Below are positions 7,641 to 62,760 of a stretch of 64,000 nucleotides of DNA, piece after piece (positions within the stretch are counted from its first letter, which is position 1; the number at the start of each line of letters is the position of its first letter). A program made the translations under genes and the position numbers. The stretch is from Oceanisphaera profunda (lineage in GTDB: Bacteria > Pseudomonadota > Gammaproteobacteria > Enterobacterales > Aeromonadaceae): positions 744,001 to 808,000 of the forward strand of contig NZ_CP021377.1 of NCBI RefSeq assembly GCF_002157895.1, given 5' to 3'. The notes below the pieces were generated by a model that did not search any database, was not told the origin of the DNA, and worked only from the letters and a program-made list of their open reading frames with translations.

Positions 7641-8770
7641 TATTCGGCTCCGTACTGTTGGCTGATCCAAGTTTGATAAGAACCACTTTGTACGTTTGCA
7701 ACCCAGTCTTGATTATCTAAATACCATTGCACCGTGCTACGGATGCCGGACTCGAAAGTTTCTTGGGGCGTCCAACCAAGCTCGCGTTCTATTTTGCTAG
7801 CATTAATGGCGTAGCGACGGTCATGGCCTGGGCGATCACTGACATGAGTTATGAGCTCTTTATAATGTTGAATGTTGAATTTTGAATGTTGAATGGGATA
7901 CAGGTCGTCTAGGATTTGGCAGATGGTTTGTACTACTTCTAGATTGGTTTTTTCGTTATGGCCGCCGATATTGTAGGTCTCGCCTATTTTGCCTTCGGTG
8001 ACTACTTTATAGAGTGCGCGGGCGTGATCTTCTACATGCAGCCAATCACGAATTTGATCGCCCTTGCCGTAGATAGGCAATGGCTTACCTTCTAGCGCAT
8101 TGAGGATCACCAGCGGGATCAGTTTTTCCGGAAAATGATACGGCCCGTAGTTATTAGAGCAGTTGGTGATCAGCGTCGGGAAGCCATAAGTGCGCAGCCA
8201 AGCGCGAACTAAATGATCGGAGCTAGCCTTGCTCGCAGAGTACGGCGAGCTGGGAGCATAAGAGGTGGTTTCGGTGAATAAAGGTAAGCCTTGTGTATTT
8301 AATTCATCATTCAACATTAAACATTCAACATTGCCGTCCGCCGGGTGCGGAAGGTCGCCATAAACTTCATCGGTGCTAATGTGATGAAAACGAAAGCTGG
8401 CTTTTTTAGCGTCAGCTAACTCGTTCCAGTAAGCGCGAGCGGCTTCCAGAAGATTATAAGTACCCACTATATTAGTTTGAATAAACTCAGCGGGGCCAGT
8501 AATCGAGCGGTCTACATGGCTCTCTGCCGCTAAATGCATCACCGCATCGGGCTGATGTTCAGCAAACACCGTATCTAGCCCAGCACGGTCGCAAATATCT
8601 AGCTGCACAAAATGATAACGTTCAGAGTCAGAAATAGACTTAAGCGACTCTAAGTTACCGGCATAGGTCAGTTTATCGAGATTAATAACCACATCTTGAG
8701 TGTTATTGATAATGTGACGTATCACAGCAGAACCGATAAAACCTGCACCACCCGTAATAAGAATCTTCAT
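7640..8770 (-). CDS. rfbB: dTDP-glucose 4,6-dehydratase, copy 1, with two heptad-repeat insertions
   Basis: Second step of dTDP-rhamnose synthesis. NAD-binding [16 protein letters not shown], catalytic region [22 protein letters not shown] and [14 protein letters not shown] are all present. ATG 8770 is preferred over 8776 because the AGGA box then has normal spacing. The protein has 376 residues against about 361 in E. coli. The excess lies in two places whose DNA is 7-bp repeats: after LPHP (peptide [12 protein letters not shown], 8302-8333) and after DDLYP (peptide [10 protein letters not shown], 7864-7898). Both stay in frame. An ops element lies about 45 bp upstream, making this the first gene of an RfaH-type operon. 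Confidence 0.95.
7864..7898. repeat. Heptad repeat (AATGTTG type) inside rfbB copy 1
   Basis: Five consecutive 7-bp units (AATGTTG, AATGTTG, AATTTTG, AATGTTG, AATGGGA on the plus strand), read as [10 protein letters not shown] in the rfbB frame. The same insertion sits at 35098-35132 in copy 2, so it predates the duplication. Confidence 0.88.
8302..8333. repeat. Heptad repeat (ATTCAAC type) inside rfbB copy 1
   Basis: Units ATTCATC, ATTCAAC, ATTAAAC, ATTCAAC between the LPHP and LPLFTE codons. Copy 2 carries a different heptad block at the same codon position (35522-35604). Confidence 0.85.
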
Positions 8771-9094: not shown

Positions 9095-9330
9095 GCAGGT
9101 ACCGGGTCTTCGTCATGCTGATACTGAATCGAGTTCAGCATGACGGCCTCGGTATCTCTCTCTTGTTTCTAAAGACCAACAGCCAGATCCTGATGTTCAT
9201 CAGGGTGACGGTCTAGTGTAGATCCTGATGTTCATCTCGATGACGGCCTAGTGCAGATCCTGATGTGCGTCAGGAAGACGGCCTAGTGCGCAGATCCTGA
9301 TGTGCATCAGGAAGACGGCGTAACATCACA
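9095..9330. repeat. Palindromic ATCCTGA...TCAGGAT repeat cluster
   Basis: The gap 8771-9359 holds the rfbB leader (with the ops and an A/T-rich hairpin near 8876-8912) and then degenerate copies of the palindrome family: a GTACCGGGT-type arm near 9100, CTGAATCGAGTTCAG at 9123-9137, and several CCTGATG-N-CATCAGG hairpins up to 9330, some damaged. No credible gene lies here. Confidence 0.8.
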
Positions 9331-11335: not shown

Positions 11336-11636
11336 TTTGCCACGGAATACACGGACGTACACGGAAAAATGAAAACTAACAAATTATTGGATAAGACCTT
11401 GTAACCACTCATGCCATATTCACAGTCAGCCTGATGAATACGCATCAACGCTCCGCCCATACTGCTCTTGCAATAGCCGTGGTAAAAATCATTAGTCTTA
11501 TGTCAAACACAGATTCTGGTACCCATCTACTATGATGGGTTACATGTAAACTACACACGATGCCCTGCAGTATTTCTTACCCAAAACAGTTTTTTATTAG
11601 CTTTTTCCGTGTTATTCCGTGTATTCCGTGGCTGAA
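11336..11636. repeat. CACGGAA element with inverted ends (long version)
   Basis: The left arm TTGCCACGGAATACACGG at 11338 and the right arm CCGTGTATTCCGTGGC ending near 11632 are inverted copies. The interior of about 220 bp is longer than in sister elements and carries unrelated sequence. Nothing coding is seen in this 340-bp gap between pgi and the ligase gene. Confidence 0.85.
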
Positions 11637-13336: not shown

Positions 13337-13486
13337 GGCCACGGAATACACGGAACTGCACGGAAAAGTAAAGACCGACCCAAGTAATTTTTATGGGTAA
13401 GATTTTACACAACAATATGCACTTTTACTCTTATTTTTGCCCTACTCCCGTGTATTCCGCGACTCTCGTAGCAAAGAGACGTGGCA
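13337..13486. repeat. CACGGAA element
   Basis: The left arm GCCACGGAATACACGGAA is complete, followed by the conserved interior TTATGGGTAAGATTTTACA. The right arm ends in a variant, CCGTGTATTCCGCGACTC followed by a short fold-back to GTGGC. It lies directly upstream of pgi. Confidence 0.82.
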
Positions 13487-13513
13487 AAAATATCTTGGCC
13501 TGTAGGTCGGCGG

Positions 13514-13612
13514 TTTTGTAGGCGAACGTTTACTCTCGCATTTCGCCGCAGGCGGAACCGTTATTAACCTTCAACATCAACCCAAAAACCGCGAGAACAA
13601 GTGTTCGCCTAC
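13514..13612. repeat. REP/BIME element of the RAYT-associated family
   Basis: Starts TTTGTAGGCGAACG and ends CGTTCGCCTACAA in inverse orientation (as GTGTTCGCCTACAA), enclosing CTCGCATTTCGCC and a GGCGGAACC motif. It is the same family as the units around the RAYT gene at 49.8 kb, some 36 kb away. Confidence 0.82.
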
Positions 13613-13627
13613 AAAAGACCCGAAAAT

Positions 13628-14736: not shown

Positions 14737-14805
14737 CGCCACGGAATACACGGAAGCGCACGGAAAAGTAATAACCAAATCAATGAAATCTTATGGGTAA
14801 GACCA
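14737..14805. repeat. CACGGAA element, left half only
   Basis: GCCACGGAATACACGGAAGC plus the interior ATCTTATGGGTAAGA, then broken off without a right arm. It overlaps the region immediately upstream of galE. Confidence 0.75.
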
Positions 14806-14837
14806 AGCCTTTCGAGCTACGGTAAGCTTTCGGCTTT

Positions 14838-16280: not shown

Positions 16281-16603
16281 TCAACATTCAACATTCAACA
16301 TTCAACATTCAACATTCAACATTCAACATTCAACATTCAACATTCAACATTCAACATTCAACATTCAACATTCAACATTCAACATTCAACATTCAACATT
16401 CAAAAACATTCAACATTCAACATTCAACATTCAACATTCAACATTCAACATTCAACATTCAACATTCAACATTCAACATTCAACATTCAACATTCAACAT
16501 TCAACATTCAACATTCAACATTCAACATTCAACATTCAACATTCAACATTCAACATTCAACATTCAACATTCAACATTCAACATTCAACATTCAACATTC
16601 AAC
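16281..16603. repeat. (ATTCAAC)45 heptad tandem array
   Basis: Forty-five consecutive 7-bp units ATTCAAC: 16 perfect units, one expanded unit (ATTCAAAAAC at 16398-16407, three extra A), then 28 perfect units. Both long open frames that cross it merely repeat FNIQHST and are not genes. It begins about 6 bp beyond IS110 copy A and ends 34 bp before the wbpM stop codon. Near-perfect identity over 323 bp implies recent expansion or homogenisation. Confidence 0.98.
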
Positions 16604-16636
16604 ACTATTTAACCATCTTCCGTGGCAAAAATAGGC

Positions 16637-34873: not shown

Positions 34874-36034
34874 TTATTCGGCTCCGTACTGCTGGCTGAT
34901 CCAAGTTTGATAAGAACCACTTTGTACGTTAGTTACCCAGTCTTGGTTATCTAAATACCATTGCACCGTGCTACGGATGCCGGACTCGAAAGTTTCTTGG
35001 GGCGTCCAGCCAAGCTCGCGTTCTATTTTGCTAGCATCAATGGCGTAACGGCGGTCATGACCTGGGCGCTCACTGACATGAGTTATGAGCTCTTTATAAT
35101 GTTGAATGTTGAATTTTGAATGTTGAATGGGATACAGGTCGTCTAGGATTTGGCAGATGGTTTGTACTACTTCTAGATTGGTTTTTTCGTTATGGCCGCC
35201 GATATTGTAGGTCTCGCCTATTTTGCCTTCGGTGACTACTTTATAGAGTGCGCGGGCGTGATCTTCTACATGCAGCCAATCACGAATTTGATCGCCCTTG
35301 CCGTAGATAGGCAATGGCTTACCTTCTAGCGCATTGAGGATCACCAGCGGGATCAGTTTTTCCGGAAAATGATACGGCCCGTAGTTGTTCGAGCAGTTGG
35401 TGATCAGCGTCGGGAAGCCATAAGTGCGCAGCCAAGCTCTTACTAAGTGATCGCTAGATGCTTTTGATGCCGAGTATGGGCTACTTGGGGCGTAGGCAGT
35501 TTGCTCGGTAAATAAAGGTAAAGAGTTAAGGGTGAAGCGTGAAGTGTTAGGCACTGAGGACAGGCTCTCTCCCTTTACACTTTGCGCTTCACTCTTCACA
35601 TCACTTGGATGTGGTAGGTCGCCATAGACTTCGTCGGTACTAATGTGATGAAACCGAAACGCTTGCTTACGTTTATTATCCAGCTCGTTCCAGTAAGCTC
35701 GGGCTGCTTCTAGCAGGTTATAGGTACCGACTATGTTAGTCTGAATAAATTCAGCTGGCCCATCTATGGATCTGTCTACATGGCTTTCTGCTGCTAGGTG
35801 CATAACGGCATCAGGCTGATGTTCGCTAAACACTCGCTTTAATTCTGCGGCATCACAAATATCAACTTGTTCAAAGGCGTAGCGGTCGCTATCGCTCACT
35901 GCTACTAGATTTTCTAAATTGCCAGCGTAGGTAAGTTTATCTAGGTTAACGACGCAGTCTTGTGTATTGCTGATAATATGGCGAACAACGGCCGAGCCAA
36001 TAAAACCAGCACCACCGGTAACTAAAATTTTCAT
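34874..36034 (-). CDS. rfbB: dTDP-glucose 4,6-dehydratase, copy 2, with two heptad-repeat insertions
   Basis: 386 residues (E. coli about 361). Catalytic features as in copy 1. The insertion after DDLYP ([10 protein letters not shown]) is shared with copy 1. The insertion between DLPHP and LPLFTE is different: here residues [17 protein letters not shown], then [11 protein letters not shown], coded by a fold-back heptad block (35522-35604). N-terminal thirds of the two copies differ at many silent and several coding sites, so identity is confined to the 3' parts. The gene follows wbpP with 2 bp between. Confidence 0.95.
35098..35132. repeat. Heptad repeat (AATGTTG type) inside rfbB copy 2
   Basis: The same five 7-bp units as at 7864-7898, in the same codon position; part of the duplicated segment. 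Confidence 0.88.
35522..35604. repeat. Heptad fold-back block inside rfbB copy 2
   Basis: Plus strand: GAGTTAA, GGGTGAA, GCGTGAA, GTGTTAG, GCACTGA, then the complementary type TCTCTCC, CTTTACA, CTTTGCG, CTTCACT, CTTCACA. Two facing half-blocks occupy the codon position where copy 1 has ATTCAAC-type units. Confidence 0.85.
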
Positions 36035-37184: not shown

Positions 37185-37550
37185 TCAACTTTTAATTGGT
37201 GCTGTATGTTTTTTATGTAAGCCAGTAATTAACCGCGAGGCTTGCTCTATATGTTCTTCAAGCTGGGAATTTTCACTTGCCATACCCAGCTGGGTTGCAA
37301 TGAGGTATTGAGTTTCTAGCTCACTTAATGAGCCTCTAGCAACACTTAAAAAATAAGCGAATTCTTTTGAACTGCTACGGGCTGCGCCTTCTGCAATATT
37401 GGAAGGTACAGAAACTGCCGCCCTTCTCATCTGCGACTGCAGACCATACTTTTCTTCAGTCGGGAAAATAGCTAACCAACGATAAATAATCTTCACTAAT
37501 TCCATACTGACAGACCAGGCGTGCAGCTTGTAATGCGGTCTTACTGTCAT
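37185..37550 (-). CDS. Four-helix-bundle protein (S23/Avd-like family), copy 2
   Basis: 121 residues from the ATG at 37550 ([19 protein letters not shown]), preceded by AAAAGGA; the longer open frame upstream is repeat sequence. [40 protein letters not shown] is the family core. It differs clearly from copy 1 (SGTSIGANINEAQ there), so the two are separate lineages, not a recent duplication. Both flanks are GGGATGA/GGAATCT-type heptads. It interrupts the tviB-wbpP gene pair. Confidence 0.9.
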
Positions 37551-37576
37551 AACAAATCCTTTTGTTACTCTAATTC

Positions 37577-37640
37577 GGGAATGAGGAATCTGGAATCTGG
37601 AATCTGGATTGAGGGATGAGGGATGAGGGATGAGGGAAAA
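37577..37640. repeat. Heptad repeat upstream of four-helix-bundle gene 2
   Basis: GGAATGA, GGAATCT (three times), GGATTGA, GGGATGA (three times), GGGAAAA: nine units in strict 7-bp phase with step changes of unit type along the block. Confidence 0.92.
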
Positions 37641-37674
37641 GACACTCAAACCTGAAGGTTCCGCGCTGTTTATA

Positions 37675-37745
37675 TCCTCCTGCTTCCTCATCCCTGTTTT
37701 CTATGTATTATCCTACTTCCTCATCCCCCTTCCCTGCTCCCTGTA
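37675..37745. repeat. Heptad repeat, opposite strand orientation
   Basis: C-rich on the plus strand (CTTCCTC, ATCCCTG ... CTCATCC, CCCTTCC, CTGCTCC, CTGTAC). It is opposed to the G-rich block at 37577-37640, so the pair forms an inverted arrangement with ~35 bp between. Confidence 0.75.
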
Positions 37746-39042: not shown

Positions 39043-39128
39043 AATGTTGAATGTTGAATGTTGAATGTTGAATGTTGAATGTTGAATGTTGAATGTTGAA
39101 TGTTGAATGTTGAATGTTGAATGTTGAA
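39043..39128. repeat. (AATGTTG)12 heptad tandem array
   Basis: Twelve near-perfect AATGTTG units just upstream of the tviB start, inverse orientation of the ATTCAAC array at 16.3 kb. It lies in the wzc-tviB gap together with two CACGGAA elements. Confidence 0.96.
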
Positions 39129-39152
39129 TTAAAATAAAACTCTAAAGCTATT

Positions 39153-39270
39153 TTTGCCACGGAATACACGAAAACGCACGGAAAAAACCAGAGAAAATAA
39201 TCTATATGGTAAGATCTTAAAAATAATATGTACTTTCACTTTTTGCTCCACTTCCGTGTATTCCGTGGCA
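39153..39270. repeat. CACGGAA element
   Basis: TTGCCACGGAATACACG left arm and TTCCGTGTATTCCGTGGC right arm, interior GGTAAGATCTTA. Confidence 0.9.
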
Positions 39271-39296
39271 GAAAGTTATTAAAGGCTAAAACTCCT

Positions 39297-39424
39297 TGGC
39301 CACGGAATACACAGAAGCGCACGGAAAAGTGAAGACTAAACCAAGTGAATCTTATCAGGTAAGATCTTACAACAATAAATATGCATTTTGGACTTTTTCT
39401 CTACGTCTGTGTTGTTCCGTGGCG
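39297..39424. repeat. CACGGAA element, tandem neighbour
   Basis: A second complete element 26 bp further: GGCCACGGAATACACAGAAG ... TCTTATCAGGTAAGATCTTA ... TGTTCCGTGGCG. It ends at the wzc stop codon region. Confidence 0.9.
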
Positions 39425-39434
39425 AATCTAGATC

Positions 39435-41633
39435 TTAAGATTTATATTCGTAATTGTAGTAACCGTAATTGCCGTAAGCAGATGCTTTGCGCTCTACGGC
39501 GTTGAAGACGATGCCTTTAACGTTTATGCCATTTTGCTGATAACGACGTTGGGCTACTTCTACTTCTTTAAGCGGGTTTTTAGCAAAGCGGCTAACCATT
39601 AGCGTGGTGCCTGCTTGGGCACTGATAATGACTGGATCGGTAACCGCTAAAATTGGCGGCGTATCGATAATGATTAAATCGTACTCTTGCTCAACTTGTG
39701 CCAGCAGTTGATTAAAATTGCTGTGCATTAGTAACTCGGACGGATTAGGTGGCACTTGGCCACGAGCCATAAAGTGTAAGTTATTAACTTCTGTGCTGTG
39801 TACGGCTTCAGCTAGCGTTAAACGGCCGGTTAGTAACTCAGATAACCCTTGTTCAGCTTGCTTATTGAATATTTTATGCAAGTAGCCTTTACGCATATCC
39901 GCATCTATTAACAACACCTTTTGCCCAGCTTGCGCACAAATGGCCGCTAGGTTTGAGCTGATAAAAGACTTACCCACTTCTGGGCTGGGGCCACCAATGG
40001 CAATTACCTTGTTATTAGCTTCTAACATGGCAAAGTGCAAACTAGTGCGTAGTGCGCGTAATGATTCTATCGCCAAGTCGGTGGGGTTATAAGCGGCTAA
40101 CAGCATATTGCCTTGTGTTGCTGCATTTTTACGCTTACTAAAACCGAGCATTTTCTTTTCGTGTGCTTCGCTTAGCGGCACACTGGCGTACACATTCATG
40201 CCTGCTTGCTCAAAGTCTTCGGGGTTTTCTACACCACGATTAAGTAAGCCACGCACCAGCACCAAACCCACACTGAACATACCGCCCAGCATAGTCGCCA
40301 ATACTACGATTAACGGTTTTTTTGGTTTAACGGGTGCGGGGGCAGTAACAGCATCGTCAATAATGCGCACGTTGCCCACGGTGCCCGCTTTAACAATGTT
40401 CAGCTCTTGCACTTTGTTTAACAGCTGAATATAAATCTCTTGGCTAACTTCCATGTCGCGCGTTAAACGCAAGATTTCTTGTTGAGTATTGGGCAGATTT
40501 TCTACTTTCTCTGACAGCTCATTTTTATCGCGTAGCAAAGACTGCTTTTTTTCTAGCAAAGCTTGATAGCTGGGGTGAGCACGAGTGTATAAGCGGCTTA
40601 GCTCAGACTCATTGAACGACAACTCGTTGAGTTGTTTTTCTAGATCCACTAACTGAGTGAGCACGCTTTGGGTTTCTAACCCTAAATCTACGGATTTATT
40701 CTGTTGGCGATATTGGTTGAGACGCTCTTCCGCTTTATCCAACTTACCCTTTAACTCTGGTTGTTGGTCAGCTAAAAATTGCAGGCTTTTTTCTGCCTCT
40801 GCCGATTGGCGCTGAATATTTTGCAGTAAATATTGCTGCGCCACCGCATTAAGGCTGCTGGTAATTTCTGCGGGATTAGTGCCAGTTAAGCTCAGTTCCA
40901 AGATGCCACTGGCTTTGCCTTTTTCGCTCGCGCCTAAGTTGCTCTTAAGTGCGTTAATGGCGTTTAAACGGCTGGCTTTAACTAGGGCGAATTCGGTGTT
41001 GGGGCGCGCCACTAAATCGGTAATTAAAACACTAATGCCGCTTTGCTCTGTCAGCTGATTGGCTTGGCCTTGTAGCAGTACTTCACCGCTTTCATTTAAT
41101 AGCTCAAAGCCCAGCTCGGTGGTGCGCAGCGTTAACGCTTTATTTAACAGATTATTGGGTACATCTAACCGACTAACGTTAATCTGCTCGCCCCCCCACG
41201 CGTAGCTGCTGAACATACCGGCATCCGCTGGTTGCTCGCCGGAGTAACGACGCGCCATAAACTTACCGATTAATGGGAAGTAGTTAGGAGTAACTATAAT
41301 GTCGCGCTTAACTTCGTCTACCGCTGCACCTAAAATTTTGCGCGAGGTAATAATGTTAATTTCCGCCTCGGCGTTACTTTTTTGCGAAAACATATCTGAT
41401 ACATCACCCAGCGCCGACAAACCACCGGATTTTTCTTCTACTTGTAGTAAGGCGTTGGCTTTATATTCCGGCGTAGCCAGCAAAGCATAGGCGACGCCTA
41501 ACATCATGGCAATAGCAGTAATACTAATGATGATCCATTTGCCATCCATAAGCAGGCCAAACAAACGGCCTAGATCTATTTCATCATCATTTGGCGCTGA
41601 GTTAGCAGAGAGAGTGTTAGATTGTTGTGTCAT
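39435..41633 (-). CDS. wzc: Polysaccharide co-polymerase / BY-tyrosine kinase Wzc
   Basis: 732 residues: N-terminal Wzz domain between membrane segments at about 35-55 and 440-460, a coiled-coil periplasmic part (LQFLADQQPELKGKLDKAEE), then the cytoplasmic kinase with Walker A GPSPEVGKSFISSNLAA near 548, Walker A' LLIDADMRKG and Walker B DLIIIDTPPILA. The tail YGNYGYYNYEYKS has six tyrosines, the autophosphorylation cluster removed by Wzb. Controls chain length and export through Wza. Confidence 0.96.
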   Translation of the reverse strand: MTQQSNTLSANSAPNDDEIDLGRLFGLLMDGKWIIISITAIAMMLGVAYALLATPEYKANALLQVEEKSGGLSALGDVSDMFSQKSNAEAEINIITSRKILGAAVDEVKRDIIVTPNYFPLIGKFMARRYSGEQPADAGMFSSYAWGGEQINVSRLDVPNNLLNKALTLRTTELGFELLNESGEVLLQGQANQLTEQSGISVLITDLVARPNTEFALVKASRLNAINALKSNLGASEKGKASGILELSLTGTNPAEITSSLNAVAQQYLLQNIQRQSAEAEKSLQFLADQQPELKGKLDKAEERLNQYRQQNKSVDLGLETQSVLTQLVDLEKQLNELSFNESELSRLYTRAHPSYQALLEKKQSLLRDKNELSEKVENLPNTQQEILRLTRDMEVSQEIYIQLLNKVQELNIVKAGTVGNVRIIDDAVTAPAPVKPKKPLIVVLATMLGGMFSVGLVLVRGLLNRGVENPEDFEQAGMNVYASVPLSEAHEKKMLGFSKRKNAATQGNMLLAAYNPTDLAIESLRALRTSLHFAMLEANNKVIAIGGPSPEVGKSFISSNLAAICAQAGQKVLLIDADMRKGYLHKIFNKQAEQGLSELLTGRLTLAEAVHSTEVNNLHFMARGQVPPNPSELLMHSNFNQLLAQVEQEYDLIIIDTPPILAVTDPVIISAQAGTTLMVSRFAKNPLKEVEVAQRRYQQNGINVKGIVFNAVERKASAYGNYGYYNYEYKS

Positions 41634-41668
41634 TGCTTACTTCTCAAGATTAAAAGACTAAAGATTTT

Positions 41669-41795
41669 TTGCCACGGAATACACGGAACAACACGGAAAA
41701 AGGCAAAACTAAAATTATTATTGGTAAATACTTATGTAGTATGGTTTCTGTTCGCTCTTGGTGTCTCTCCGCTGAGTTCCGCGTGTTCCGCAGCA
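41669..41795. repeat. CACGGAA element, 3' side of the GxxExxY gene
   Basis: TTGCCACGGAATACACGGAA left arm; the right arm is diverged (TTCCGCGTGTTCCGCAG). It lies between wzc and the GxxExxY gene. Confidence 0.83.
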
Positions 41796-41810
41796 GTTTT
41801 AGACTTAGGA

Positions 41811-42173
41811 TTAAAGAACGAGGCGTTTTATGGTTGCTTTAGGATGTGTAAAATTTATTAACAAACCAATTTTAATGCCTGTTGCTTTTAAGTAGTTTAC
41901 AAGTTGTGCGTCAGCCGTTGAATGCAACATAGTTTGAGACTTTAGCTCTAACAACACCATGTTATCTACAACTAGATCAGCTCTATACTCACCTACGACT
42001 TGCCCCTTATAAACGACTGATAAAGGCACTTCGGATTCAACAGAAAGTCCTAAATGACGTAATTCATACAATAGTGCGTTCTGGTAAACCGACTCTAAAA
42101 ATCCGTGCCCTAAGTTCCGGTATACCTCAAATACTGCACCGCGTATTTTATAGGTTAGTGCTTCTTCGTACAT
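41811..42173 (-). CDS. GxxExxY family protein (PD-(D/E)XK-like fold)
   Basis: 120 residues from the ATG at 42173 (a GGGAGG box precedes). The family name motif is seen as GHGFLESVYQNALLYELR, followed by a nuclease-like core VVGEYRADLVVDNMVLLELKSQ (D-x(n)-ExK arrangement: Asp in YRADLVV, ELKS) and LINFTHPKATIKRLVL at the end. The family is widespread and unassigned; the restriction-endonuclease-like core suggests nucleic acid cleavage, unproven. CACGGAA elements flank it on both sides, and it separates wzb from wzc, which normally adjoin. Confidence 0.88.
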   Translation of the reverse strand: MYEEALTYKIRGAVFEVYRNLGHGFLESVYQNALLYELRHLGLSVESEVPLSVVYKGQVVGEYRADLVVDNMVLLELKSQTMLHSTADAQLVNYLKATGIKIGLLINFTHPKATIKRLVL

Positions 42174-42222
42174 AAGAGCCTCCCTGCCCTGCATGCTCAA
42201 GAGATCCGAGACCAAAGCTTCT

Positions 42223-42367
42223 TAGCCACGCCTCTTTGCAACGAGAGTCACGGAAGCGCACGGAAAAGAGACAAGCCACTAAAAACAATTTTATGGTTAG
42301 ACCTTACAAATAATATGTACTTTCATTTTTTGCTCTACTTCCGTGTTTTTCCGTGTATTCCGTGGCA
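42223..42367. repeat. CACGGAA element, 5' side of the GxxExxY gene
   Basis: The left arm is interrupted: GCCACG, then CCTCTTTGCAACGAGAGT, then CACGGAAGCGCACGGAAAA. The right arm TTTTTCCGTGTATTCCGTGG is complete. The same small interruption in mirror form occurs at the 13.4-kb element. Confidence 0.85.
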
Positions 42368-42395
42368 GATGTAATTTAAAGACTAAAATCTCTCC

Positions 42396-42532
42396 CGCCA
42401 CGGAATACACGGAATCGCACGGAAAAATGCAGTTCAAACCAAGTGAACTTTATGGGTAAGATCTTACACAATAAAAGTCTTTTTATGTGTTATTGCTCTA
42501 CTTCCGTGTCTTTCCGTGTATTCCGTGGCAAA
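42396..42532. repeat. CACGGAA element
   Basis: A complete textbook copy: GCCACGGAATACACGGAA, interior TTATGGGTAAGATCTTACAC, TTCCGTGTATTCCGTGGC. 137 bp. Confidence 0.93.
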
Positions 42533-42550
42533 AAAAGGTTTTGATCTTCG

Positions 42551-42985
42551 CTATTTAGCGAGTTTCTCGGCCCAGAGTTTGCTGTTGTTGGCGATTAGCT
42601 GGTAGACGTGCTGGAACGCTTCTTCGCTTTTTTTGTAGGGGTCGGGTATTTCTTGGTTGCTGTTCCATTGGCCGAGCAAGAAGGTTTTGCCGCGGGCTTC
42701 GGGGGCTAGCCTAGTGATGCTTTCTTTGTGGCCTTGTTCCATGACCAAAATCACATCCGCTTCTCGGCATAGTTCTTTGGTTAACTGACGAGCACTGTGC
42801 GTGGGGCACGCCACATTATGTTGCTCGGCTATTTTTTTAGCCGTGGCGTCTATGTCGTGTCCGACTAATGCGCCCAGGCCTGCGGAGTGTACGGTTTTGT
42901 TCGGCAGCGCTTGTTTAAGTAGAAACTCGGCGGTAGGGCTGCGGCAAATATTACCCACACACACCACTAAAATATTATCAAACAT
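42551..42985 (-). CDS. wzb: Low-molecular-weight protein-tyrosine phosphatase Wzb
   Basis: 144 residues from the ATG at 42985; the longer frame upstream is heptad sequence. Catalytic CX5R loop VCVGNICRSPTAEF (Cys9-Arg15) and the general-acid Asp in EIPDPYKKSEEAF. Dephosphorylates the Wzc tyrosine tail. Confidence 0.96.
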   Translation of the reverse strand: MFDNILVVCVGNICRSPTAEFLLKQALPNKTVHSAGLGALVGHDIDATAKKIAEQHNVACPTHSARQLTKELCREADVILVMEQGHKESITRLAPEARGKTFLLGQWNSNQEIPDPYKKSEEAFQHVYQLIANNSKLWAEKLAK

Positions 42986-42997
42986 GGTAACAATCCA

Positions 42998-43070
42998 AAA
43001 TGTTGAATGTTGAATGTTGAATGTTGAATGTTGAATGTTGAATGAAAAGCTAAGATAAACACTCAACACT
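42998..43070. repeat. Heptad repeat, fold-back
   Basis: Six AATGTTG units followed after ~14 bp by ACACTCA-ACACTAA in the opposite sense. It lies just upstream of the wzb start. Confidence 0.88.
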
Positions 43071-43079
43071 AAAACCTAG

Positions 43080-43485
43080 TCCTTTTTGCAACGGAATCCG
43101 CTAAATCCACGGAAAATAGGGATCAGATCTGAAATGAAATTTTATGAGTAAGATCGATATATAGTGAAGAGTAAAGACGCAGTTCTTTGGCGTCATACTA
43201 AGCTCGCCCCAGTACCTCGTTCTTTGCCCTAAACCAAAAACGAGATCCTGATGTGCATCAGGATGACGACTTAAGTACGAACATCACCCCCTCTGCCGTC
43301 TTGCCGGTATCTTGTCTATGCAGTCTTGCCGGGTTCGCCCCGGTATCTCGCCCTTTGATCTAAAAACCAAAAGCGAGATCCTGATGTGCATCAGGATGAC
43401 GGCTTTTTTAACCCCAATATGATCCCTTTTCGTACTTATCCCATCTTAATTTTTCCGTGGGTTCCGTGGATTCCGTTGCGAAAGG
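43080..43485. repeat. CACGGAA-type element split by a nested palindrome cluster
   Basis: Outer arms GCAACGGAATCCGCTAAATC and its counterpart GGATTCCGTTGC (43472-43483) are inverted, with the conserved TTTTATGAGTAAGATC interior. Between them (about 43190-43410) sit two units of the ATCCTGATG-CA-CATCAGGAT palindrome family with ACCGGTA-type arms. The nesting shows that the palindromes moved in after the outer element. Confidence 0.78.
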
Positions 43486-43545: not shown

Positions 43546-44664
43546 TTACTCGCCTATGCGTGAGCCGGTGTATACGCCAGATAGAGTAGGGATTAACTGA
43601 CCGATTACGCGGTTCCAGCGGGCGATGGGGGCGGCGGTTACAAACACGATGTCGCGCTCTTGTAATCTAAAGCTGTCGGCCAGCACCAAGGCGGCGGCGT
43701 TTTTGGCATTTAGCTGGTATACATCGGCGATACGACCGCTCTCTTGCGGTGCGCGCCTAAACACAAAGATACCGGTGGCATCTGAGGTAATTTGGCTCAT
43801 GCCTTCGGCATCGGCCAGTGCTTCGGCCAGGGTTTTGCCGTTGCGGCCCATGGGTAGCGTTTGTTGCTTGCCCACTTCGCCCAGTACAAACACTTTGCTG
43901 TCGTCGTTGCGGTTAATGTTGATTACATCATTAGGCTGCAACAAAATGTTTTGGCTTACATCGCCGTCTTTATACAAGTCGCGCAGCGAGAAACGAAAGC
44001 TTTGGTCGCCGCGATTCAGCACTACGGTTTGCCAGTCGGCAAATTCAGTAACGCCACCCGCTTTGCTGACTGCATCTATTAACGTAAGAGGGATATTAGT
44101 AATAGGCAACGTACCCGGCTTTTCTACTTCGCCGGTGACGTATACCCACTTAGAGCGAAACGCCGCTATGGTGACGTCTACTTGCGGGCTTTCTACATAA
44201 CGCGCTAGGCGCTGGCTGATCAGGTCACGCACTTCACTGACTTTTAAGCCCGCTACCTGAATGTTACCTATATAGGGGTAGAACATGGTGCCGTCGGTGT
44301 GCACCCAGTTACCTGCTTCTTCTGAACTGCGATATTGCCCAGCTGGCGTGGTGAGCTCAGGGTGATCCCATACGGTAACGCTTAATACGTCGCCGGGGCC
44401 CACTCGATAATCGTATTCGGCAATTTGTTCACGCAGTGCTAGATCGGTAGCGGGTACCACAGGAGCGGGGGCAGACTGCGCCATAATGGATGCGGCGGTA
44501 ATGGGGTAAATATCAATCAGCTCACTCAAGTCGTCGTTTTGGTCGTGGTATTGATCCACTACAGTGCCGTATGAGCTAGAGAAATGAGAACCGGGGATCA
44601 CGGTGCAAGCACTGAGTAGTACTGTGCTTAATACTAAAACTGGAATGGAGTAAGCATATTTCAT
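43546..44664 (-). CDS. wza: Outer-membrane polysaccharide export lipoprotein Wza
   Basis: 372 residues from the ATG at 44664. Lipoprotein signal MKYAYSIPVLVLSTVLLSAC with acylated Cys20, then the polysaccharide-export domain (YRVGPGDVLSVTVWDHPELT) and SLBB repeats (VYVTGEVEKPGTLPI; KVFVLGEVGKQQTLPM), ending with the amphipathic barrel helix WNRVIGQLIPTLSGVYTG. First gene after the ops leader of the main operon. Confidence 0.96.
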   Translation of the reverse strand: MKYAYSIPVLVLSTVLLSACTVIPGSHFSSSYGTVVDQYHDQNDDLSELIDIYPITAASIMAQSAPAPVVPATDLALREQIAEYDYRVGPGDVLSVTVWDHPELTTPAGQYRSSEEAGNWVHTDGTMFYPYIGNIQVAGLKVSEVRDLISQRLARYVESPQVDVTIAAFRSKWVYVTGEVEKPGTLPITNIPLTLIDAVSKAGGVTEFADWQTVVLNRGDQSFRFSLRDLYKDGDVSQNILLQPNDVININRNDDSKVFVLGEVGKQQTLPMGRNGKTLAEALADAEGMSQITSDATGIFVFRRAPQESGRIADVYQLNAKNAAALVLADSFRLQERDIVFVTAAPIARWNRVIGQLIPTLSGVYTGSRIGE

Positions 44665-44804
44665 TAAGTTATATCTACTATTTGATATGTAAGAAACGAT
44701 ATAAAGCAAGCGTACCTAGCGAGCCGTGTGACTATTTTTGGCGCAAGTAAATTACTGCGCTGAAATAAGGGGGATTGCTGCGTAAAGCTGGGTTAACGGA
44801 ATGA

Positions 44805-49576: not shown

Positions 49577-49766
49577 GCCGCTTTTGTAGGCGAACGCTTG
49601 CTCTCGCATTTCGCCAAGGGCGGAACGATTTAAACCGCCGCGCATATTCAAACCAACACACCCCTTGTAGGCGAACGTTCACTCTCGCATTGCGCCAAGG
49701 GCGGAACGATTTAAACCGCCGCGCATATTCAAAATAAAACCGCGAGAACAAGTGTTCGCCTACAAC
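49577..49766. repeat. REP/BIME cluster, 5' side of the RAYT gene
   Basis: Two direct copies of a ~85-bp unit starting TTGTAGGCGAACG, with TCTCGCATTTCGCCAAGGGC and CGGAACGATTTAAACCGCCG inside, closed by CCGCGAGAACAAGTG and the inverse end GTTCGCCTACAA. Confidence 0.9.
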
Positions 49767-49855: not shown

Positions 49856-50305
49856 ATGACCTACCACAACGCCCTAACCGGTAGAATATCGATTCCTTTA
49901 CAAATCTATCACATCACCATTTGCACTCATCAACGCACACCGTTATTTAGGCAATTACGAACGGGACGCATGGTGGTGCAAGAGCTAAAATACATCCAAG
50001 ATTATAAATATGCTGATTCTCTGGCATGGGTGATCATGCCAGACCATCTACATTGGTTAATGCAACTGAACGAGACGGCATCTTTATCTAGCGTATTAAA
50101 ACGCTTTAAAGGCCGAACAACCTCGGTGGTGAATAGACACCTACAGAGAACAGGTGCTCTTTGGCAAAAAGGGTTTAACGAGCATGCATTGCGAAAAGAG
50201 GAAGACATAAAGCAAATTGCCCGCTATATAGTGGCTAATCCACTAAGAGCTAACTTAGTAAGCAAAGTTGGCGATTACCCACTCTGGGATGCGATATGGC
50301 TATAA
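49856..50305 (+). CDS. REP-associated tyrosine transposase (RAYT, Y1 HUH family)
   Basis: 149 residues. HUH metal site in VIMPDHLHWLMQL, the catalytic tyrosine in KQIARYIVANPLRANLVS, and the family pattern YHITICTHQRTPLF / TGALWQKGFNEHALRKEEDIK. RAYTs process single-stranded REP hairpins and are thought to spread them. Start ATG 49856 follows AAGGATGATGT. REP units lie on both sides (49577-49766 and 50333-50516), so the locus is a complete REPtron. Confidence 0.94.
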   Translation: MTYHNALTGRISIPLQIYHITICTHQRTPLFRQLRTGRMVVQELKYIQDYKYADSLAWVIMPDHLHWLMQLNETASLSSVLKRFKGRTTSVVNRHLQRTGALWQKGFNEHALRKEEDIKQIARYIVANPLRANLVSKVGDYPLWDAIWL

Positions 50306-50332: not shown

Positions 50333-50516
50333 TTTGTAGGCGAACGCTAAACTCTCGCATTTTGCCAAGGGCGGGATGGTTTAAACCGCGCGTACATTCA
50401 AACTAACATCGCCCTTGTAGGCGAACGCTTGCTCTCGCATTTCGCCAAGGGCGGAACTATTTAGCCACCAAGCCCCTCAGACCCAACACCGCGAGAACAA
50501 ATGTTCGCCTACAACA
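50333..50516. repeat. REP/BIME cluster, 3' side of the RAYT gene
   Basis: Two head units (TTGTAGGCGAACGCTAAAC..., CTTGTAGGCGAACGCTTGC...) and a closing inverse end GAACAAATGTTCGCCTACAA; same architecture as the 5' cluster. Confidence 0.9.
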
Positions 50517-51279: not shown

Positions 51280-51413
51280 GCCACGGAATACACGGAAACG
51301 CACGGAAAAATGAAGACCAACGCAAGAGATTTTTATGGGTAAGACCTTACAAAATAAAATTTATTATTATGTAATTGCCCTACGTCCGTGTTGTTCCGTG
51401 TATTCCGTGGCAA
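51280..51413. repeat. CACGGAA element
   Basis: Complete copy, GCCACGGAATACACGGAA ... TTATGGGTAAGACCTTACAA ... TTCCGTGTATTCCGTGGC, directly upstream of ung. Confidence 0.92.
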
Positions 51414-53189: not shown

Positions 53190-53740
53190 CCTTCAGCCGT
53201 CATCCTGACGCACGTCAGGATCTCTCACTATGCCGTCTTCCTGATGAACATCAGGATCTCGTTTTAGGTTTTAGGTTTTAGGTTTTAGGTTTTAGAGCAA
53301 AGAGCGAGATACCGGAGCAGGTCCGGCATGACGGCATAGAGCGATGTTTGTATTTATGCCGTCATCCTGATGAACGTCAGGATCTCGCTTTAGGTTCTAG
53401 AGCAAAGAACGAGATACCGAGGCCGTCATGCTGAACTTGATTCAGTATCGGTATGACGGCAAAGGGCGGAGTACTATGTTATGCCGTCATCCTGACGCAC
53501 GTCAGGATCTCGCTTTAGGTTCTAGGGCAAAGAGCGAGATACCGGAGCACGTCCGGTATGACGGCAGCGTGCGTGATTTGTATTTCAGCCGTCATCCTGA
53601 TGCACATCAGGATCTCGTTTTAGGTTCTAAGGCAAAGAGCGAGATACCGGGGCGAACCCGGTATGACGGCAAAGGACGGTGTGCGATGTAACGTCGTCAT
53701 CCTGATGCCCATCAGGATCTCGCTGTTGGTCTTTAGAAAC
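53190..53740. repeat. Palindromic repeat cluster, 3' side of the GIY-YIG gene
   Basis: About six full units. Within one unit (53261-53295) the linker has expanded to (TTTTAGG)5, again a 7-bp tandem. Arms vary in pairs: CTGACGCACGTCAG, CTGATGAACATCAG, CTGATGCACATCAG. Beyond 53740 the gap to 53943 has a degenerate CACGGAA right arm near 53860-53905 and nothing else recognised. Confidence 0.92.
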
Positions 53741-55104: not shown

Positions 55105-55740
55105 GCCGTCATCCTGACGCACGTCAGGATCTCGGTTTAGGTTCTAGGGCAAAGAGCGAGATACCGAGGCCGTCATGCTGAACTTGATTCAGTATCGGTA
55201 TGACGGCAAAGGGCGGAGTACTATGTTATGCCGTCATCCTGACGCACGTCAGGATCTCTCACTATGTAGTCTTCCTGATGCACGTCAGGATCTCGTTTTA
55301 GGTTCTAGAGCAAAGAGCGAGATACCGAGGCGAGCTCGGTATGACGGCCTAAGGAAAAGAGCAAGTGCGAGATACTGGGGCCGTCATGCCGGGCTCGACC
55401 CGGTACCAGTATGACGGCAAAGGGCCGGTGTTTGCATTTACGCCGTCTTCCTGATGCACATCAGGATCTCGTTTTAGGTTTTAGAGCCAAGAGCGAGATA
55501 CCGGGGCGAACCCGGTATGGCGGCCTAAGGGCCGGTGTTTGCATTTACGCCGTCTTCCTGACGAACGTCAGGATCTCGTTTTAGGTTTTAAGGCAAAGAG
55601 CGAGATACCGGGGCGAACCCGGTATGACGGCAAAGGGCCGGTGTTTGCATTTACGCCGTCATCCTGATGCACATCAGGATCTCGCCCTTGGTTTTAGAGC
55701 AAAGAGCGAGATACGGTCGCACGTCCGATATGACGGATAG
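55105..55740. repeat. Palindromic repeat cluster downstream of the DUF482 gene
   Basis: About six tandem units in the 745-bp gap to thrC, with hairpins such as CTGACGAACGTCAG, CTGATGCACATCAG, ACCGGGGCGAACCCGGT and one diverged ACGGTCGCACGTCCGAT. A last half unit lies at 55795-55825 beyond the thr terminator. No gene seen. Confidence 0.93.
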
Positions 55741-61479: not shown

Positions 61480-61610
61480 CACCACCCCACCCTCACCTAA
61501 TTCTCGCCCAACAAAACGGCGCACATTCTGCCATAAAAGGCGCTGCAGCGATAGCGGGTAAAGGCCTGCGTCTGAGGCCCAGCATCAGGGAAAACAAAGG
61601 GCTAAATATT

Positions 61611-61762
61611 TTGCAACGGAAGAACACGGAACGCGCGGAAAAATTAACATGAGATAAGAGCAAAAACTGACTATAAATTTTTATTTTCAGGTCTTAACAG
61701 CAAGATATGTCTATTCAGATTCAATCTTTATTTTTCCGTGGATTTAGTGGATTCCGTTGCAG
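61611..61762. repeat. CACGGAA-type element (GCAACGGAA variant)
   Basis: The left arm TTGCAACGGAAGAACACGGA and right arm TCCGTGGATTTAGTGGATTC then CGTTGCA are inverted; same variant ends as the 43.1-kb element. Confidence 0.82.
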
Positions 61763-61789
61763 AGAAGATCTCGCTCTAGCTCTTAAATG

Positions 61790-62108
61790 GAGATACCGGG
61801 GCCGTCATCCTGACGCACGTCAGGATCTCGAGCGAAGAGCGAGATACCGGGGCGAGCCCGGTATGACGGCAGAGAACGGGATTTGGCTTTATGCCGTCAT
61901 CCTGACGCACGTCAGGATCTCGCTTTAAGCTTTAGTGATAAGAGCTAGATACCGAGGCCGTCATGCTAAACTTGATTCAGTATCGGTATGACGGCAGGGT
62001 GCGGGATTTGTATTTTTGTCGTCATCCTGACGCACGTCAGGATCTAGTTTTAAGTTTGTAAGACAAAAAGCGAGATACGGTCGCAGGTCCGGTATTCCGT
62101 GGCAAAGA
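61790..62108. repeat. Palindromic repeat cluster upstream of lasT, 3' of rraA
   Basis: About four units: repeated ATCCTGACGCACGTCAGGAT hairpins, ACCGGGGCGAGCCCGGT and the variant CTAAACTTGATTCAG. It ends with a hybrid, GCGAGATACGGTCGCAGG then GGTATTCCGTGGCAAAG, where a CACGGAA right arm replaces the expected end. Confidence 0.9.
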
Positions 62109-62679: not shown

Positions 62680-62760
62680 GCCACGGAATACAGATTTTAA
62701 AAACTAAAGCTCCTTGGCCACGGAATACACGGAAGAACACGGAAAATGAAGATAAAATCT
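62680..62760. repeat. CACGGAA element fragments
   Basis: Two left arms in a row (GCCACGGAATACAGATTTTA at 62680 and GGCCACGGAATACACGGAAG at 62717) without right arms. Confidence 0.82.

Follow-up and report, generated by a model that had tools for sequence, protein, structure and literature searches.

A small gene of the GxxExxY family and the repeats that surround it in Oceanisphaera profunda, here called CACGGAA elements, are probably two parts of one genetic system. The gene and its inverted ends travel together and differ together, and gene-less copies fill gaps that are empty in relatives. Together, the gene and its repeats have the look of a mobile or self-spreading DNA system that had not been recognised before. 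The window analyzed is a stretch of 64,000 nucleotides from contig NZ_CP021377.1.

According to the original prediction, wzb and wzc normally adjoin, and a GxxExxY gene and three CACGGAA elements have come to lie between them. Both points were confirmed. The wzb stop and the wzc start are 14 bp apart in the congeners G015 and G021 versus about 917 bp in the window genome, and the gene and the three elements fill this interval (Table 1). The full ORF of the gene runs from 41811 to 42215 (-), and the likely ATG trims it to the tabulated length. The elements had further been described as having 18-bp inverted ends and a conserved interior. Inverted ends are indeed present, but the elements extend about 20-25 bp further out; elements 2 and 3 have good inverted ends of 28-34 bp, whereas in element 1 the right end is worn and the TTATGGGTAAGATCTTACA interior is missing. 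Hairpin-like small inserts were seen within element ends in this genome (ACTCTCGTAnCAAAGAG, 13459-13483 and 42225-42255), and loci of other genera (L043-L049) carry AGCGAAGCGCTTCG or GACGCTTCGCT inserts at a similar position.

Table 1. Coordinates of the GxxExxY locus and of the CACGGAA elements in the window.
Feature	Position	Strand	Remarks
Insertion, wzb stop to wzc start	41634-42550		about 917 bp; 14 bp in G015 and G021
GxxExxY gene (TIGR04256; PF13366 PDDEXK_3)	41811-42173	-	120 aa, likely ATG
Wzc	39435-41633		neighbour of GxxExxY
Wzb	42551-42988		neighbour of GxxExxY
Wza	43546-44709		neighbour of GxxExxY
CACGGAA element 1	41671-41795		3' of GxxExxY; left end intact (GCCACGGAATACACGGAACAACACGGAA), right end worn
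CACGGAA element 2	42225-42366		5' of GxxExxY; right end intact, ~20-bp insert in left end
CACGGAA element 3	42397-42529		best-preserved copy; long hairpin fold (z = -7.7)
Long CACGGAA element	11340-11632		other interior sequence
Solo element, pgi-galE gap	13339-13490		orthologous gap clean in G009 and G013, occupied by a GxxExxY unit in G002 and G012
CACGGAA element, left half only	14739-14806		upstream of galE
Two adjacent CACGGAA elements	39157-39422		downstream of wzc
CACGGAA element, GCAACGG subtype	43088-43480		between wza and wzb
Solo CACGGAA element	51281-51411		upstream of ung
Degenerate CACGGAA/GCAACGG element	61610-61762
Partial CACGGAA ends	62681-62750

The window contains 51 copies of CACGGAA, whereas shuffled sequences gave 5.5 ± 2.5; the excess over chance is about ten-fold, and no shuffle out of 100 attained the observed count. 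Across the genome we counted 220 tandem CACGGAA pairs, compared with 1 for the reversed control, and one GxxExxY gene. The 49 elements taken from stretches of this genome are 111-362 bp long (mostly 111-190) and have inverted ends; short, high-copy, bounded by terminal inverted repeats and without a gene, they have the make-up of MITEs. Each end holds up to three units at 9-10 bp spacing plus an AT-rich outer arm. The end consensus, AAAnccAAAAncTTTTTTGCCACGGAA, contains three units and is free of a GTAG tag. Outwards of the first unit, conservation is lost gradually at 20-26 bp, so that the outer boundary is diffuse. Folded as single strands, two elements form long hairpins (z -7.7 and -5.5). 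The arms matched no better within an element than between different elements (p=0.65), so we draw no structural claim from them. Target duplications, for which the original prediction had proposed a search, were looked for in 48 elements and not detected (shared-word test, p=0.09), and no Rfam family was matched by the CACGGAA ends.

Other repeats also populate the window. Heptamer arrays (AATGTTG)n of up to 46 copies lie at 7864-7895, 16281-16604, 35098-35129, 39043-39129 and 42999-43044, one of them overlapping the upstream region of wzb and a possible N-terminal extension. Another abundant palindromic family (core ATCCTGATGTGCATCAGGAT) forms tandem arrays of ~105 bp at 9184-9319, 53449-53724 and 55409-55714, and is found at 43250-43400 and 61770-62100 as well. 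A Y1_Tnp gene (49856-50305, +) has its own repeat family, TTGTAGGCGAACGCTCACTCTCGC..., on both sides; this family also occurs at 13512-13615 and is widespread in the genus.

The GxxExxY protein scored 143.7 bits against TIGR04256 (cut-off 35) and about 138 bits against PF13366 PDDEXK_3 (cut-off 22). Its AlphaFold2 model (pLDDT 93.8) was compared using Foldseek and VIA-align; the best structural match was SSO0001 (Z 10.3), which we take to be a Cas4/RecB-type protein, and the model was also placed with Hjc, lambda-type exonucleases and restriction enzymes. The predicted catalytic residues are E27, D66, E76-x-K78 and Q90xxxY94. E27, D66, E76, Q90 and Y94 are present in 80 of 80 GxxExxY sequences and K78 in 78 of 80, and with residues so nearly invariant, catalysis is very likely under selection, judging from conservation. 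Both the modelled fold and the E, D and ExK residues place the protein in the PD-(D/E)XK superfamily, and we are confident in predicting a RecB/Cas4-like fold. To call the family unassigned, as had been done, was too strong: this holds for its function but not for its fold class. By sequence, the PDB contained no match, PADLOC gave none, and PHROGs gave one weak match only (function unknown). Plasmids held 8 GxxExxY matches, all typed non-mobilizable, and no relatives were found in phages or viral contigs. The openly licensed PMC literature contained no account of a GxxExxY-repeat association; an earlier description elsewhere is possible.

We then examined 80 GxxExxY loci from 84,980 species genomes, selected by protein similarity alone and covering many phyla, with two archaeal loci among them; as the best matches of one query, they are biased towards its relatives. 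When the upstream flank was compared with the reverse-complemented downstream flank at 67 loci, independently of any motif, the median score was 42, against 20 both for far controls on the same contigs and for mismatched loci, and 57 of the 67 loci scored above the 95th percentile of the control. Inward tandem units stood on both sides of the gene in 50 of 74 loci and on at least one side in 63 of 74, compared with 37/925 and 26/925 far control windows; the unit regex was written after the ends had been seen, so these counts are descriptive rather than independent. Flank windows with units amounted to 79.5% at 0-250 bp from GxxExxY and to 2-8% beyond. The arms are mostly triple units with a period of 8-10, which match within a locus and not between loci; the unit types comprise CACGGAA, CACAGAG, CACGAAT, CGCAGAT, CGCTGAT, CGCCAAG, CGCAAAG, ACAGGAT and others. 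These loci from other phyla, where inverted ends bracket GxxExxY, greatly strengthened the proposed partnership of gene and elements.

GxxExxY units were often seen beside polysaccharide or sugar-nucleotide genes (L001, L036, L038, L058, L049-L051, L308), namely wzb/wzc, SLBB export, galE/pgi, phosphomannomutase-like and mannose-1-phosphate guanylyltransferase genes, although a link of position with polysaccharide genes is anecdotal. Inside the polysaccharide locus of the window lies a four-helix-bundle gene (23S rRNA IVP/TIGR02436) at 37185-37691 (-), and an ORF related to this gene is found near GxxExxY at L059.

Loci with more closely related proteins tend to have more similar ends (Mantel r=0.27, p=0.0002, n=59), and the end distance between nearest protein neighbours was 0.17 versus a mean of 0.35. 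Paralogs within one genome have different ends, as observed in G012 (GCAACGGAA versus GCAACGAAA types), G389 (L040 and L055) and G440 (CGCCAAG versus CGCAAAG). Nuclease and repeats thus co-vary, as they do in RAYT-REPIN systems. In the 400 kb sampled from G012 (20 stretches), 27 of 28 type-B ends lay in three stretches, one of which holds the B gene while the other two probably adjoin, judging from wzb-wzc synteny; the stretch with the A gene held 15 A ends. Similarly, the GxxExxY stretch of G021 has 20 ends and its other 19 stretches 0-6 each. Enrichment of elements near GxxExxY was modest in the window genome (random centres, p 0.03-0.04). Genomes whose gene has CGCAGAT ends contained a median of 20 CGCAGAT pairs (upper middle value) versus 1 elsewhere (p=8e-5); the exceptions, G443, G438, G418 and G449, may contain further paralogs.

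The original prediction had named GxxExxY as candidate partner of the elements, and the co-occurrence counts supported this. Among 23 genomes of the genus, GxxExxY was present in 4/5 element-bearing genomes (at least 20 CACGGAA pairs) and in 0/18 others (Fisher p=0.0006). Among 394 genomes of the order, it was present in 11/14 element-rich genomes (those in which a degenerate CACGGAA pattern exceeded its reversed control by 20 or more) and in 7/380 others; the resulting p=1e-14 is too small because related hosts are non-independent, and the count by genera, 3/4 element-rich versus 3/114 others (p=0.0003), is safer. The opposite idea, that element abundance is unrelated to GxxExxY, was tested by these genus and order counts and did not hold. 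Four genomes had elements with no detected GxxExxY gene (G018, G183, G271, G312), and six had the gene with few countable elements (G035, G124, G332, G356, G364, G381). The closest protein pair in the genus (82%) sits at different loci, wzb-wzc in one case and galE-pgi in the other.

Empty sites, a check proposed in the original prediction, were found in relatives. The galE-pgi gap is clean in G009 and G013, where it measures about 100 bp, contains one element and another repeat in the window genome, and holds a GxxExxY unit in G002 and G012. At both wzb-wzc and galE-pgi, orthologous sites are occupied in some species and empty in others, as for mobile elements; with a single genome for each species, the exact junctions could not be read. 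Those five dispersed copies of the window genome that look most recent, which are nearly identical (L014 1453-1749, L024, L172, L237, L246), were considered as recent CACGGAA movement and rejected as such. They are chimeras, in which a CACGGAA element of the GCAACGG subtype lies within an IS630-type MITE with TACCAATC...GGTA ends; the junction of the MITE carries TA, and a DDE_3 domain is present in an element related to it. Since the chimeras moved in this MITE, they were not counted as evidence for movement by CACGGAA ends, on which their spread is uninformative. Related chimeras were noticed in G018 and G021.

We weighed several other explanations. Another enzyme might mobilise the elements, with GxxExxY a passenger or a tamed regulator that, for example, processes or represses hairpins. 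The subfamily of five chimeric copies carried by the IS630-type MITE, the persistence of elements in some genomes lacking a detected GxxExxY gene, and the synteny of GxxExxY kept within some families, as for a tamed gene, are in line with this. However, that subfamily was the only link to a classical transposase; as the description of the elements as MITE-like with no known transposase implied, no other transposase with matching ends was found, and GxxExxY is the gene that has such ends. Moreover, the type of end goes with the individual GxxExxY gene that it surrounds, paralogs of one genome included, which would not be predicted for a passenger, and we consider this explanation unlikely. Still less probable is that the IS200-like gene of the window has the CACGGAA elements as its REPs, a reading we regard as barely credible. 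It could draw on the Y1_Tnp gene at 49856-50305 and on three Y1_Tnp genes in the genome, but the repeats beside the gene in the window belong to another family (49579-49765, 50415-50514). Of 18 congeners with few or no elements, 14 have Y1_Tnp, whereas the element-bearing genome G002 lacks it, and we rejected RAYTs as partner, their genes showing no co-occurrence with the elements (p=1). No HUH/Y1 transposase flanked by these repeats was found, and the ends are without a GTAG-tagged short palindrome.

The inverted ends could also be immobile features surrounding a small gene, either plain hairpin terminators or RNA elements, given that each element can form a long hairpin. The ends are not terminator-like and have no Rfam match, they occur by hundreds away from the gene and co-occur with GxxExxY across genomes, and their dispersal and the occupied and empty gaps disfavour this view, which makes it very improbable. 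A defence or conflict system, where the nuclease polices the repeats or is restrained by them following a restriction-modification or toxin-antitoxin logic, would suit the PD-(D/E)XK fold, common to restriction enzymes. Yet PADLOC gave no match, no methylase or antidote gene lay beside GxxExxY in the annotated loci viewed, relatives in phages or viral contigs were not found, and the ends bracket the gene like an element; we judge such a system to be improbable.

We therefore favour a single system of GxxExxY and CACGGAA elements, which might work as follows. The gene for a predicted RecB/Cas4-like nuclease sits between inverted ends, each typically with three units at a spacing of roughly one helical turn, and the shorter gene-less copies with the same ends would be dispersed, non-autonomous relatives of this unit. 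The GxxExxY protein may recognise its own ends, binding either their phased units or the hairpin or cruciform that these units form, and may cut at the ends, which would help copies to spread; host repair or recombination would complete the process. The outcome would be a gene that stays in the chromosome, is passed on vertically and is mostly single-copy, and on which many small elements depend, as with RAYTs and REPINs. Mobilisation of the elements by GxxExxY, which we infer, is the least secure step of this scheme. We give an even chance to the broader proposal of a new minimal class of mobile DNA in many phyla and in archaea, in which a ~120-aa RecB/Cas4-like PD-(D/E)XK nuclease would recognise helically phased, co-evolving triple-unit ends and spread not only its gene but also gene-less copies by the hundred, using no DDE, HUH, serine or tyrosine chemistry.

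Although GxxExxY genes are common, they have had no explanation, and in many host genomes the repeats that bracket them are dispersed. The link between the two provides a first testable role for the family and accounts for a group of 'orphan' palindromic repeats seen in different phyla. GxxExxY proteins and their ends form natural enzyme/site pairs in which the site changes as the protein does. Movement of the elements by the nuclease would amount to a transposition route that relies solely on PD-(D/E)XK cutting. Should the nuclease not move them, its co-evolution with its own flanking repeats in bacteria and archaea would still call for an explanation.

Compared with known systems, the CACGGAA elements resemble DDE MITEs such as the IS630-type in being short, AT-rich, intergenic and present in many copies with inverted ends. 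Unlike for these, no parental DDE transposase with such ends and no target duplication was found, and their type of ends co-varies with a nuclease gene of another fold. The ends of Tn7 and Mu comprise several phased repeat units, suggesting repeated protein-binding sites, whereas GxxExxY is a single gene of ~120 aa without a DDE integrase or ATPase partner. Intervening sequences of 23S rRNA (IVP/S23) likewise comprise a long inverted repeat whose loop contains a small gene; GxxExxY differs in fold, is not confined to rRNA genes, and has elements dispersed by hundreds. The predicted fold, the E...D...ExK core and the QxxxY motif are shared with Hjc and Cas4/RecB, but GxxExxY has no PDB sequence match, Fe-S domain or helicase partner, and it is bracketed by its own repeats. 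The ends of the published CGTC class of REPs, which is reported to lack a dedicated transposase (PMC3733652), differ from GxxExxY-linked ends. RAYTs are likewise encoded by a single chromosomal nuclease gene, mostly present once, that has the repeats it acts for on either side, and REPs and REPINs are many non-autonomous, palindromic, intergenic copies that co-vary with the enzyme (PMC3116915, PMC8266576, PMC3733652). The GxxExxY enzyme is a RecB/Cas4-like PD-(D/E)XK protein rather than an HUH/Y1 one, its ends usually have three phased 7-nt units per arm (period 8-10) rather than short GTAG-tagged palindromes, and its elements are mostly about 110-190 bp. Enzyme class and end structure thus exclude assignment to the RAYT system, while the working logic, one chromosomal nuclease gene and many palindromic copies, is alike.
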